Positions 16,805 through 21,616 of a stretch of 42,735 bases of DNA are shown here, piece by piece (position 1 is the stretch's first letter; the number at the start of each line of letters is the position of its first letter). The notes under the pieces are model-generated. The model was not told the origin of the DNA. It did not search any database and saw only the letters and a program-made list of their open reading frames with translations. Made by a program: the position numbers and the translations under genes. The stretch is from the NCBI GenBank assembly GCA_026399025.1, contig JAPLRU010000086.1, forward strand, positions 1 to 42,735, given 5' to 3'. Source of the DNA: Methylobacter sp. GTDB lineage: Bacteria; Pseudomonadota; Gammaproteobacteria; Methylococcales; Methylomonadaceae.

Positions 16805-19800
16805 TTAACCGGCAGCAAGAAGGAAGGCTTGGCAGGCGGCCAGCATTTCATCTTGCGCGGTGGCGAAGCTGAAATCGCGTTGCGCTTGATTTTCCGGCCA
16901 ATCACGTAGCGCGGCGGCGACAAAGGCTTGAGGTGACCAAGGCTGGGTTTTGAGCACAGCAAGATCGTCGCGGAGCACGGCTTCATCTTCGTTGCCGAGT
17001 CCTTCGGGGAAGAAAAACCCCAGCACCGCGTCATCGTCAAGCAACCACGCTTGCAATTGCAGCCAGTGGTGCCTTTGTTGCTGGGCCAAAGGCATGCCGC
17101 GTTGATCGAACAAGCCCAGCTCGGGGGGCAAAGGTTGGGCCGGGCGCAAGCCGCGCCGGGTCATCAGATCGGGGGCTTCGGCTTGTTCGCTAAACCAGTC
17201 GTGAGCGGCGTAGAAATAACCGAAGCGCTCCAAGGCGCGGGCAAAAGCGACTAGCGGCTCATCCGCCACATCCGGGTTTAAGCGCTGCTCGCAAGTTTGT
17301 AATAGCTGACGCAAGGCTTCGGTGAGGGCGGCAGATTGCGACAGCGACAGCGACAGCGACTGCGCCCGCGACCGCGACAGCGACAGCGACAGCGACAGCG
17401 ACAGCGACAGCGACAGCGACCGCGACAGCGACAGCGACAGCGACAGCGACAGCGACAGCGACAGCGACAGCGACAGCGACCGCGACAGCGACAGCGACAG
17501 CGACCGCGACAGCGACCGCGACAGCGACCGCGACCGCGACCGCGACCGCGACGCCCAAAGCACAAGCAAAGGCAAGCATTCCATCAACGACAGCGCCTGA
17601 TACAGCCCCAGCGCCAGCCGGGCGCGGACCGGCAGTTTTTCCTCAGGATATAACGCCAGTAACACTACCGGTTGACTGTACATATCCCAATAATCGTCAA
17701 TTGTTTCGCCTTGCAACAACCAAGCATCCACAGGTAATTGAGCCAACGCGCATTGCCACAATTGGCCGCGCCCCGGCAGCAAGGCATCCAGCACTAGGCA
17801 GGCATGAGTGGCAACCGGCAGAGCCGCAGAGTGTTCGGATTTTTTACGTATCCATAACAATGTTCCATCCTGTAAAGCGGCGCTAAGCGCCGATTCCAGA
17901 GCAGGGTCGGCAATAGGATTTTGTACGTCGCTTTGTAGCCCCCAACGGCTGAAAACCAACACGACTAACAGGCTATAGAATCGAGCGGAAACTGAATCGT
18001 CTTGTTCATTCCAATCCGCTTTGCGCCACTGTTCCAACATGGCCTCGTGCCGTTCCGGCCAAGCAAAAAGCGGGGCGATTGAATCTGCCCGCTGTTGCAA
18101 AACCCGCCACTGCGCTTCGGCATAATCGGAGCTGGAACTTAGCTCCGGCGGATTCAGCAACTCAATGACTAAAGCCAACCCGGCTTGTTCCAGGTGCGGA
18201 CAGTCGGCCAAGTGATCGGCTAATTCTTGTTTAGGATGCAATAAGCAAGCGGCCAACAGCACCGGCAACCAAGCTTGTTGCCGGGCCGGGGTTATGCCAA
18301 GTTCCTTGCCGCACAGCGCACGCACCAACAGCGACGCTTCGGCGGTTTTGTGCGGCTGTAGCAAACCCAGCAGTTCCAAATGCCCGTCTTCTGAGCGATT
18401 TTTGTGGATGGCCAGCAGCAGTAGGCCCACTTCGTCCCAACCGGGGCGGTTTAAGCGCTCGGCCAAATCGTTGCGAAACACCGTTTCAAACTGGCGACCG
18501 CTCAAACGGCGCTGAATATCTTCCGCGCACAGGTATTCCTGAAAACTCAAATGGGCAAAACTGATTTCGCCTTCTCGCGGCGAAATCAACAAGCCTGCGG
18601 GATGCAAATAATAGTCCAGCAGTTCATCGGCGTCTTCAGGCAAAATGCCGCCGTCACTGGCGCGGTCCTGCAAATACTGTGCAATAAAATCGCGCAGCTC
18701 AGGCTGGGGCCAAAGGATGCGGCGCTGGTCGGGATTATTGTTATCTTCTTGCCGGTCGGCGCCGCGCAACTGGCTTTCAAAAGCGATGCGTCCCAACACC
18801 CGGCGTTTTTCCTGGGCCGACCACGCTTTCAGCGGATTGCTGTTGATGCCGCATTTAAGCTGGCGATGGCGCTCCTGGCGGTTGAGGTATAAATCGACGA
18901 TGGCCTCGTACAGATCGGCGCGACCATGAGGCATTTCGTTACGGGTGCAATGCACCAGCGCCATTAAAGCCAGGAAAATGGGCCGCCGCGCCAGCGTGAG
19001 CAAATACGGGCGGTTGTTATCCTGCAATGCCTTCAAGAAGTGGTCCGTACCGTCTTTACGCTTAATTTGCCATTCGGGGCGCAGCCGATACCAGCGGTCG
19101 ATGAAGTTATGGATTTGCGGCCAAGCGAGGGGCAACAAATGGTAATGCAAGACTTTCCAACTAAGAGTTATAGAGCCAGTACTAATAATTTTCGCCTTCG
19201 ACGATATTTCCGTATTTAGCTCATCGTCAATCGTCATATCTGCGGACAATATTGCACTCTCTTCTTCTGGAATAAGGGGAGAATGCCCCGGTTCGGTCTG
19301 TATAACTCTTGGCAGATGAACATCGGTAAAGCCGTTGGGTCTGCCGGTGACCAATATCCGGCAACCCAATCTGTAAGCCTCGACGGCGATATTCAACAGG
19401 ATTTGCCGCACATCCGCGCCACCGATTTCATCTATGCCGTCAAACAGCAATAACAACGGAAAATGATCGCCTTCGACATTAAAACTGTAACGCAACCTCG
19501 CAATATCCAAGGCGTCGGCCTGTTCGTTTTTTTGTTCCAAGTTTTGCCACCACGCTTCCATCAGTGCATCTAAAGTGAGGATGCGGTCTATGCCGGAAAT
19601 TTCGCGCAGAATCAGCGGTATCGGGGCGATGCCGCGCTGAGCTTGCAATGCGGTACGCAAACTGCTGGGATGACTGCCGCACAATTCGCCGATCAGCGCT
19701 TTGGTCAGCGTGGTTTTGCCGCTGCCGGGCAAGCCGGACAGGCAGATGAAAGGCTGCTCGGCAATCAGTTCAAAAGCATCCCGGCCCGGTAAGTTGGCGT

Positions 19801-20026
19801 CGGTTTCTTGTGCCACGACCTTATCGGGCGGCGCCATGTCGGTTTCCGTTATATCTTCCTGAGCCACGCGCATCGGGACGAATATTTGCCGCAAGTTGAC
19901 CGGTTCCGGTTCGTCGCTCATTTCCGCCAGCTCGGCGCTGCCGTGATATTTGTTTAGCCAGCGGAAATAATCGGCTCTGGCGCGCATTCGGGCGTTTTGT
20001 TCGGCGGTGCTATTAAGATCGACCAT
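16805..20026 (-). CDS. NACHT-family STAND NTPase with Ser-Leu/Ser-Arg repeat segment
   Basis: A 1073-residue protein. Residues 1-80 are a short N-terminal part with no known effector domain. The NACHT module follows: Walker A GLPGSGKT (98-105), Walker [11 protein letters not shown] (191-200), then the sensor segment [10 protein letters not shown] and the later region [16 protein letters not shown] (about 500-515) that is usual in bacterial NACHT proteins. After about 520 it is a helical, Leu/Ala-rich sensor-like region. Residues 826-897 are 36 dipeptides, nearly all Ser-Leu or Ser-Arg, encoded by a 6-bp array. Residues 898-1073 resume ordinary sequence. STAND NTPases of this kind often detect phage proteins; that use here is inferred. 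The gene follows the KAP NTPase with 3 bp between them and has a weak ribosome site, suggesting coupled translation. Confidence 0.88.
17336..17551 (-). repeat. Hexanucleotide tandem array inside the NACHT gene
   Basis: 216 bp made of 36 hexamers, mainly TCGCTG and TCGCGG on the coding strand (CGACAG and CGACCG-type on the plus strand), with one internal variant unit that reads Ala-Gln. Because the unit is a multiple of three and contains no stop in any frame, all six frames stay open. Gain or loss of units changes protein length without a frameshift. Confidence 0.97.
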
Positions 20027-20029
20027 GGT

Positions 20030-21616
20030 TTATTGCTCTTCGTTGGTAATTTGCAGGTACATGGCAGGAAGGTTTTCATCTTTGGCTAAGCCGCCGCCAT
20101 TCACCCAATTAACAAAATATTGGTCCGAGCGTCTGCGGTCCAGTCGCTCTATTGCTTTATCCACGGCCGCGTCTAAAGACTGGCTGCGGTGCAGCTTCAT
20201 TTCATCGGCGTTATCGTGCTTAAGCACATGAGCGAAAGAACGCGAGAAAATTTCTTCGGTCATGCGTAAATCATCGGTGCTGAGATGCCCTGATATCGGC
20301 TCTTTACTGCCCACCAGCACTCTATGCAGCAGTTGCAACAAGATCGGTTCCCGCTCCAGCAGACGCCATACCGGCAGATGATTGTTACGCAGGTATTGAA
20401 ACATAACCAAGCGGCGGCAATTGGCTTCGTTGTTCATGGCGGCGCAACGCAATACCTGCCAGTTGGCGCACAGGCTGTTGAGGAAGTTTTTGACTTTGCG
20501 CGGGTTGGGTTCGAGTAAGGCTTGTATGTCTTTTGCCAAGCCGGGAACGGCGTCGTTAGGAAAGCCATGGGCGGTTAATTGGCTTTCGATCAGTGTTTGC
20601 AGTTTGCTGTCAACCGGCTGGGGCACCTGCACGGTGGCTTGGAACAGTTTTTCCAGGTATTCGCGGTTACTGTCGTCGCTGCGGCCTTGCCAATGACGCT
20701 TGAGCGCATCGCCTACCGCGACGTCGTCCACGCCCAGCACGAACACACAGCGGTGAGTGCCTAAATACAGTTTGATGGCTTCCAGCAAGGCGACCACGGC
20801 TTCTTCTTCGCAACGATCCAGGTCGTCGATGAAAACGATCAGGCGGGCGTGTTGGGATATGTTTTCCGGTTTGGCTACGCTTTTGGCTTTAGACGCTTTC
20901 TTTTGTTCGGGAAGCCTTTCTTGTTCCGCCACGGCAAGCAAATCGGTCAATAGGTTTTCCACCGCATCTTCAAACAGCAAATGAAAACGCTGGCCGTCGC
21001 TGGGTTTAGCCAGATTTTCCGGGTTGTTTTCATGCCAGGCTTTACGGATATTTTCGGCAACCCCGACCGCCATTTTTACCGGCTTGCCTGTAGTAAAGCT
21101 AATGGCGGCATCAATCGCATGTTCCAGTAAGGTCCAGGCCGCCAAGCCGCCTTGACGGTTGAGCTGTTTACCTTTTTCCATGATTTTGCGGGTAAAGCCG
21201 TATTGGGCGCGGATTTCTTGAAGCAAGGGTATTAAGGGATTGGCGGCGTCCTGATGCTGCCAAGGGGAATACCAGATGCACAGGCTTTGTTTGGCGACAT
21301 TGTGCAAGTCGCCCCACTTCAGTACATTGAACCGACTCCCGTGGCTGTGGTGCAAGCTTTCCAGCGCATCCAAGTTGTCTTGATTCAATTCCGGCTTATT
21401 ATCGGCCAATTGCAAATGCTGGCTGATAGGCTGTCCGCCCAGCGTAGCAAACGCCCGGCGCATCACGCTGGTTTTACCGCAGCCCCATTTACCGGTAACG
21501 CCTATAGTGAACGGCGGGCTGACATCCAAGGCCATACGCGCTACCGCATCTCCGGCATGGCCCAGGCCCATGCTGTCTTTTTGTACCCATTGATCATTAA
21601 TGTAATTGGCCGCCAC
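20030..21616 (-). CDS. KAP-family P-loop NTPase
   Basis: A 528-residue protein. Walker A is GKWGCGKTS (42-50) in the family's W-G-x-G-K form, CIWYSPWQH follows at about 112-120, and the extended Walker B FIDDLDRC (262-269) with GVDDVAVGDAL after it are diagnostic of KAP NTPases. A weakly hydrophobic stretch near 165-190 stands where many KAP proteins have membrane helices, but it is too polar to call a clear membrane segment. The start is GTG at 21616, supported by AAGGAA 5 bp upstream. The KAP family includes F-plasmid PifA, which excludes phage T7. It is the first intact gene of a two-gene unit with the NACHT gene; a broken small ORF lies upstream. Confidence 0.88.
   Translation of the reverse strand: MAANYINDQWVQKDSMGLGHAGDAVARMALDVSPPFTIGVTGKWGCGKTSVMRRAFATLGGQPISQHLQLADNKPELNQDNLDALESLHHSHGSRFNVLKWGDLHNVAKQSLCIWYSPWQHQDAANPLIPLLQEIRAQYGFTRKIMEKGKQLNRQGGLAAWTLLEHAIDAAISFTTGKPVKMAVGVAENIRKAWHENNPENLAKPSDGQRFHLLFEDAVENLLTDLLAVAEQERLPEQKKASKAKSVAKPENISQHARLIVFIDDLDRCEEEAVVALLEAIKLYLGTHRCVFVLGVDDVAVGDALKRHWQGRSDDSNREYLEKLFQATVQVPQPVDSKLQTLIESQLTAHGFPNDAVPGLAKDIQALLEPNPRKVKNFLNSLCANWQVLRCAAMNNEANCRRLVMFQYLRNNHLPVWRLLEREPILLQLLHRVLVGSKEPISGHLSTDDLRMTEEIFSRSFAHVLKHDNADEMKLHRSQSLDAAVDKAIERLDRRRSDQYFVNWVNGGGLAKDENLPAMYLQITNEEQ

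Follow-up and report, generated by a model that had tools for sequence, protein, structure and literature searches.

The 42,735-nt contig JAPLRU010000086.1 of a Methylobacter sp. (assembly GCA_026399025.1), called the window below for its whole length, contains two adjoining genes for P-loop NTPases, one of the KAP family and one of the NACHT (STAND) type. Within the NACHT gene, a hexanucleotide repeat array is read as a tract in which serine alternates with leucine or arginine. The parts of this KAP-NACHT unit are listed here; related loci and genomes are cited by our working numbers (L and G).

20030-21616, minus strand: KAP-family P-loop NTPase, upstream gene, 528 aa, GTG start (Pfam KAP_NTPase)
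16805-20026, minus strand: NACHT (STAND) NTPase, downstream gene, 1073 aa, ATG start (Pfam NACHT; aligned to 12 homologues)
18167-20002, minus strand: NOD-like receptor (NLR)-type module of the NACHT protein, residues ~9-620 (structure matches to NOD2, NLRP3 and NLRC4)
19157-19297, minus strand: variable insertion, residues 244-290 (predicted local distance difference test, pLDDT, below 50; block of length-variable alignment columns)
17333-17551, minus strand: alternating dipeptide tract, residues 826-898 (Tandem Repeats Finder array, tract count, alternation score)
16808-17320, minus strand: C-terminal helical part, residues 903-1073, kept within the family (alignment and model)

The stop of the KAP gene and the start of the NACHT gene are 3 bp apart on the same strand. 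An earlier, sequence-only reading had described the two NTPases as back to back in this order and at this spacing, and the open reading frames (ORFs) and Pfam bear it out: the KAP ORF, with its P-loop domain, matched KAP_NTPase at 1.3e-30 (107.1 bits; cut-off 20) and the NACHT ORF matched NACHT at 8.4e-07 (29.4 bits; cut-off 26.7). The same reading saw no recognizable effector domain in either protein, and none was found in Pfam, PADLOC or NCBIfam. The P-loop and DDLDRC motif of the KAP protein were kept in an alignment with 12 homologues. KAP NTPases in many cases carry a transmembrane insertion. Here the highest 19-residue Kyte-Doolittle mean was 1.25, too low for a classical transmembrane helix, and by this crude test no such insertion was detected in any of 13 proteins (maxima of 1.03-1.66). 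Searched by sequence against solved structures, the KAP protein had no relative at E 0.01, and a promoter scan gave no excess of sites (4 vs. 3.9 in shuffles).

The pairing recurs in other genomes. When genome contigs were searched with the KAP protein as query, 16 loci emerged, and later finds brought the total to 24 KAP-bearing loci, window included. A NACHT gene lies directly downstream of KAP in 22 of them (the window, L006-L018, L021, L026, L029, L084, L085, L087, L090, and L116, the last assigned by eye), and the other two (L019 and L020) end at a contig edge. L019 and L087 belong to one genome and hold adjoining halves of a KAP protein (residues 2-267 and 266-501), so that the loci represent 23 KAP genes. 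Many of the loci are tightly spaced: the two genes overlap by 4 bp in L007, L012, L014, and L017, but are separated by 273 bp in L010 and 220 bp in L011. Approached from the other end, KAP adjoins in 15 of the 17 genomes with the C-terminal domain of the NACHT protein; of the two exceptions, L028 yielded the C-terminal half of the NACHT protein alone and L086 is a remnant. Hosts include Thiococcus, Thiorhodococcus, Thiohalocapsa, Thiothrix, Leucothrix, Desulfobacterales, Desulfobulbaceae, Nitrospirae, and Kapaibacterium, together with a Magnetococcus plasmid; several of the genomes are metagenome-assembled genomes (MAGs), in which misbinning is possible, and that of Kapaibacterium is large (7.9 Mb). 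In unrelated genomes, and across several phyla, the two genes form a fixed unit, as the sequence-only reading had proposed.

The pair is neither core nor common but patchy. In collections holding one genome per species, a close KAP protein (E 1e-30) occurred in 1 of 121 genomes of the family, namely the window's own, and the C-terminal domain in 3 of 369 genomes of the class, the window's own counted. In the family of G494, the C-terminal domain was present in 5 of 126 genomes (G494 and one remnant counted), and in the phylum of G500 the KAP profile (E 1e-30) matched 1 of 247 genomes, G500 itself. On the Magnetococcus plasmid (L026, 3306-7418) an IS4-family transposase gene interrupts the KAP gene, and in L085 both genes are broken by frameshifts. 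A plasmid search returned 3 records with a KAP match and 27 with a NACHT match, none covering at least 80% of the query. Among viral contigs, 29 stretches fitted the pattern of the C-terminal domain and none was confirmed. The window's genome contains a second KAP-NACHT pair (L029, G000:C24:80000-95000; KAP at 5223-6599, NACHT at 6569-8965), whose NACHT protein ends in leucine-rich repeats (LRRs; LRR_4, 2.3e-21). A similar pair in the Desulfobulbaceae genome G500 (L090) has LRR-like repeats by eye, and the pair of G449 (L116) has yet another C-terminal part. The pairing thus persists across changes of the C-terminal part, which differs in L029, L090, and L116.

The AlphaFold2 model of the NACHT protein (mean pLDDT 77.3) gave matches to NOD2, NLRP3, and NLRC4 over residues 9-620 in an NLR-like arrangement; one domain filled the list of this fold search, and residues 620-1073 were barely probed by it. 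Against solved structures, the NACHT profile had 11 matches, all at the P-loop region and all to other ATPases. Residues 7-28 form a single helix in the model, and no Pfam domain precedes the P-loop region that could serve as an N-terminal effector of the kind expected in antiviral STAND (Avs) proteins, the matches beginning at residue 81 or later. Unlike the eukaryotic NLRs NOD2, NLRP3, and NLRC4, the protein showed neither an LRR (no Pfam match at E up to 1) nor a CARD or PYD in Pfam, and it has a partner ATPase encoded in trans; an NCH-type domain was likewise without a Pfam match at E up to 1. The end of the protein is conserved, its last 138 residues being 38-61% identical to 11 homologues, and helices are modeled at 922-1072.

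Between module and C-terminal part lies the most unusual feature of the locus, an alternating tract in what we propose below to be the sensor position. The sequence-only reading described the genes correctly and left out both this 36-copy array with its tract and the second KAP-NACHT pair. Tandem Repeats Finder delimited the array at 17338-17552 (35.8 copies, 93% matches), which reads (Ser-Leu/Ser-Arg)n. Serine occupies 36 of 37 alternate positions in the window tract and the others are L (24), R (10), and Q (2); the best 50-residue stretch alternates at all 50 residues, which none of 2000 shuffles of that stretch equaled. When 16 family proteins or fragments were scanned, 11 were counted as having a tract (score of at least 7), with L007, L012 (in which it is degenerate), L013, L015, and L085 left out. 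Together the 11 tracts have Ser at 268 of 289 alternate positions, and their length differs between genomes, from 8 to 50 alternate positions. The residues at their 278 variable positions are L (126), R (116), Q (18), W (11), E (3), and one each of I, V, H, and S. One length difference is between G600 (L084) and G523 (L085, G523:C231), where the unit lies beside the same gene (argS by eye) and is 88% identical over 4.2 kb. Alternate Ser positions number 33 in G600 and 2 in G523, with flanks alignable on both sides.

Alternation of this kind recurs with other codons in other NACHT proteins. In L018, Met, Arg, or Ile alternates with Ala or Asp at the same place (ATG and AGG with GCT and GAT), and four cyanobacterial plasmid NACHT proteins (L105, L109, L110, and L068) have long alternating tracts ahead of their C-terminal part. 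In L109, the tract is partly Ser-Leu/Ser-Arg, encoded by TCC, CTC, and CGC, where the window uses TCG, CTG, and CGG. Pfam NCH2 is found in the C-terminal part of L068, and also in L061, L064, and L067, which are without a clear tract; within the class of the window's genome, NCH2 occurred in 1 of 360 genomes (E 1e-8). A 50-residue alternation score of at least 41 was reached by 10 of 15 KAP-NACHT proteins, 4 of 16 other plasmid NACHT proteins, and one of four further proteins (L119, a broken gene). This cut-off was chosen after the scores were known; when each of the 31 proteins was shuffled over its whole length 60 times, the highest score was 40. Scores of 38-39 also occur in several proteins that have no obvious tract. 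A set of 71 control ORFs yielded a single score of at least 41, from L018 itself, which had escaped the filter, and a next-highest score of 39. The place of the tract is fixed, in that the best segments of the 14 KAP-NACHT and plasmid NACHT proteins scoring at least 41 start at a relative position of 0.71-0.82. The third codon base is G at a frequency of 0.97-1.00 in the tracts of the window, L009, L014, and L084, and C at 0.76-0.96 in the four cyanobacterial tracts vs. 0.13-0.18 in their other codons; in L016 and L018 it is split evenly between two bases. Among codons for the large residues, variation is greatest at the second base in 9 of 13 tracts, at the first in L010 and L110, and at the third in L109 and L068. 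Common descent of the repeats can account for the near-constant third base; that a mixture persists at the second base suggests selection on the choice of residue. By annotation, the cyanobacterial plasmid NACHT genes of L110, L112, L108, and L066 lie beside or near restriction or bacteriophage exclusion (BREX) genes; L110 (Allocoleopsis), which adjoins a type I restriction subunit gene, is the only one of the four with a clear alternating tract.

The sequence-only reading did not recognize the pair as a named system, and indeed no profile cut-off of PADLOC or NCBIfam was reached. PADLOC includes Avs models. In that collection the KAP protein resembles QatA (6.7e-24), PDC-S20 (6.6e-19), and PifA (1.4e-17; 61.6 bits, the best stretch being 155-321 of a 720-position profile), and differs from them in that its partner gene encodes a NACHT protein. 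Membership in Qat was rejected, as the QatA equivalog scored 100.4 bits vs. a cut-off of 600; the next gene is NACHT rather than QatB, QatC, or QatD, and no QueC-like or TatD-like domain occurs in the 22 window ORFs scanned with Pfam. The NACHT protein matched mad8, VakA, and PDC-S73 only at E up to 1, all at the P-loop. The NCBIfam serine-rich protein model NF033849 (17.6 bits vs. a cut-off of 650) covers residues 828-898 alone and looks compositional. Bacterial bNACHT proteins, according to the part of the text of PMC12169576 available to us, have a central NACHT module, include one clade said to be without readily discernible effector domains, and may have other domains in place of the LRR. 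The window protein shares the central NACHT module and the absence of a recognized effector, but bNACHT proteins are described in that text as single proteins, whereas here a KAP gene adjoins and the C-terminal part comes with an alternating tract. No description of a KAP-NACHT pair or of such a tract was found in a literature search that left most subscription papers outside.

With moderate confidence, we interpret the KAP-NACHT pair as a two-gene NLR-type conflict system, most likely directed against phages or other mobile elements; it is probably an unrecognized kind of putative bacterial immune receptor pair. The NACHT protein would be both sensor and switch, with residues 9-620 held closed with ADP until a ligand leads them to oligomerize, and with the C-terminal part sensing in the place of an LRR. 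The (Ser-X)n tract would be a length-changing element of the sensor: slippage or unequal exchange could alter its reach, charge, and pattern and leave the protein unbroken, as the tract stays in frame because its repeat unit is two codons long. Output would then pass to the co-encoded KAP ATPase as an effector in trans. We infer the executor role of KAP from the lack of a recognized effector in the NACHT protein together with the pairing, and a sensing role for the tract from where it lies and how it varies. Linkage across phyla, sparse distribution, the IS-interrupted plasmid copy, the NLR fold, the LRR-bearing sister pairs, the tract statistics, the orthologues with and without a tract, the likeness of KAP to QatA, PDC-S20, and PifA, and the restriction neighbor of L110 all point to this interpretation, as do the neighbors of L008. 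The first 70 residues of the flanking proteins of related loci were assessed by eye, and 10 proteins of six loci were then scanned against PADLOC. Five matched, four of them in L008 (2-6740), where a HEC-01 pair with end-to-end matches (710.3 and 281.2 bits) lies a few kb before the KAP-NACHT unit, accompanied by a helicase close to the HmaA and BrxH models and a protein with weak similarity to HmaB and other methylases. An SNF2-type helicase in L012, of a class that matches many PADLOC models, accounts for the fifth match. By its gene content L008 is a defence neighborhood, the only one of the six loci for which the matches show this, and these neighbors raised our confidence in a conflict system and lowered it in two of the rival explanations.

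Several observations weigh against this interpretation. No homologue with tested activity was found, no defence gene lies near the window pair among the window ORFs scanned (22 with Pfam, the remaining ORFs being mostly shorter), and five of the 10 eye-picked flanking proteins had no PADLOC match. The earlier suggestion that the pair is a candidate defence system is borne out in part, by linkage, patchiness, profile scores below the cut-offs of named systems, the NLR-like fold, and L008. In the window the flanking genes are ordinary, with chemotaxis and LysR genes to one side and genes for FtsH and a sigma factor to the other. Across the tract, the AlphaFold2 pLDDT is 29-38. L007, L013, and L015 are open over their full length and have no clear tract, so the family can do without it. 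The tractless copy of G523 is frameshifted in both genes, whereas both genes of G600 are open and carry the long tract; absence of the tract in G523 may be part of gene decay. Finally, hexamer arrays are common in the class, where a backward control pattern was found in 29 genomes by our count vs. 9 for the pattern itself. Seven of these 9 genomes are without the system, and the arrays examined in two of them (L036 and L038, KAP-NACHT absent) were set aside as lying in unrelated genes.

The abundance of 6-base arrays in unrelated genes, exceeded even by the backward control, bears on whether the tract matters at all. The pair could be a defence or stress system whose tract has no function of its own and is just an in-frame hexanucleotide microsatellite that a permissive loop tolerates, and the low model confidence, the near identity of the repeat units in DNA, and the family members without a tract fit such an account. 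We think it rather unlikely, and three results speak against it. The Pro codon CCG, one transition from CTG, is absent from all 278 variable positions, where a rough estimate based on the two missense transitions from CGG would predict 14.5, while Pro occurs three times at the Ser positions of the tracts. Changes at Ser positions were 26 synonymous vs. 21 non-synonymous, where a one-step model without transition bias expects a ratio of 3 to 5 (one-sided p 0.0098). These two statistics are modest evidence for selection on the tract. The third is the recurrence of alternation with other codons, at the same relative place, in other NACHT families.

The tract could also be an element of assembly rather than of sensing, with alternating small and large residues forming beta strands for amyloid-like or condensate assembly of the activated receptor. 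RS-type or amyloid motifs drive assembly in other proteins, the strict period of two, which places a single large residue at each step, is compatible with an amphipathic strand, and Pro is avoided at the variable positions. The variable residues include 116 Arg of 278, however, the model has no strand in the tract (at very low confidence), and known NLR amyloid signaling motifs are N-terminal; on balance we regard this explanation as unlikely. Less probable again is that the pair serves housekeeping or developmental signaling rather than conflict. STAND proteins also regulate transcription and metabolism, and the scanned window ORFs include no defence neighbor, but the pair is very sparsely distributed over several phyla, occurs on a plasmid and in decaying copies, and in one case has a clear defence neighborhood, all of which speaks against such a role. 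That a diversity-generating retroelement made the tract variation is very improbable: the cyanobacterial codons mostly end in C, like a mutated AAC template, and reverse transcriptases matched in 5 of 6 genomes searched (two RVT_1 in the window's own, elsewhere in the genome), but a tract-bearing Desulfobulbaceae genome (a MAG, perhaps incomplete) has no RVT_1 match at E 1e-5, no reverse transcriptase is among the window ORFs scanned (a search that did not extend to template repeats), and the tracts are tandem repeats that differ in length and alternate in a non-random way.

How bacterial NLR-like receptors track changing targets is an open question, for which mutagenesis by a retroelement is one published proposal: the part of PMC10907252 available to us describes NACHT/STAND antigen sensors whose C-terminal lectin domain is mutated by a retroelement, and names KAP NTPases among alternative NTPase types. 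The conflict-system interpretation shares with those sensors the notion that part of a bacterial NACHT sensor changes fast; unlike their lectin domain as that text presents it, the part that varies here, in length and pattern, is an in-frame repeat tract. A tract at the sensor position that changes in frame by slippage would answer the question in another and simpler way, and the KAP partner would complement a receptor that has no recognized effector of its own. More tentatively, and as a view we hold to be doubtful, alternating small/large dipeptide tracts may form a general, unrecognized diversifying class in bacterial NLR-like receptors at the place of the LRR, with multiple origins from different codons, changing by in-frame gain and loss of repeats and by second-base switches (exchanging a hydrophobic residue for Arg, or Ala for Asp in other families), and with KAP as dedicated executor. 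If so, the sensing surface of a bacterial receptor would be rewritten by repeat mutation with no need for a retroelement.

The KAP-NACHT unit is flanked by two inverted copies of a palindromic dispersed repeat:

16529-16673, minus strand: dispersed repeat copy, 90% identical to the other, with three pairs of arms (40-49 nt, 95-98% complementary)
21767-21906, plus strand: dispersed repeat copy on the other side of the unit

A 140-bp query taken from the copy at 21767-21906 had 64 BLAST matches in the genome, partial and palindromic matches counted, and the repeat may be an element resembling a miniature inverted-repeat transposable element. Two further tandem repeats were seen in the window. 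At 14125-14654, a 138-bp unit is repeated 3.9 times within an ORF (13491-15209) that has no Pfam match, and at 32984-33062, 11 copies of the 7-base unit CTTTAGC stand just before the ORF of an ABC transporter ATPase.

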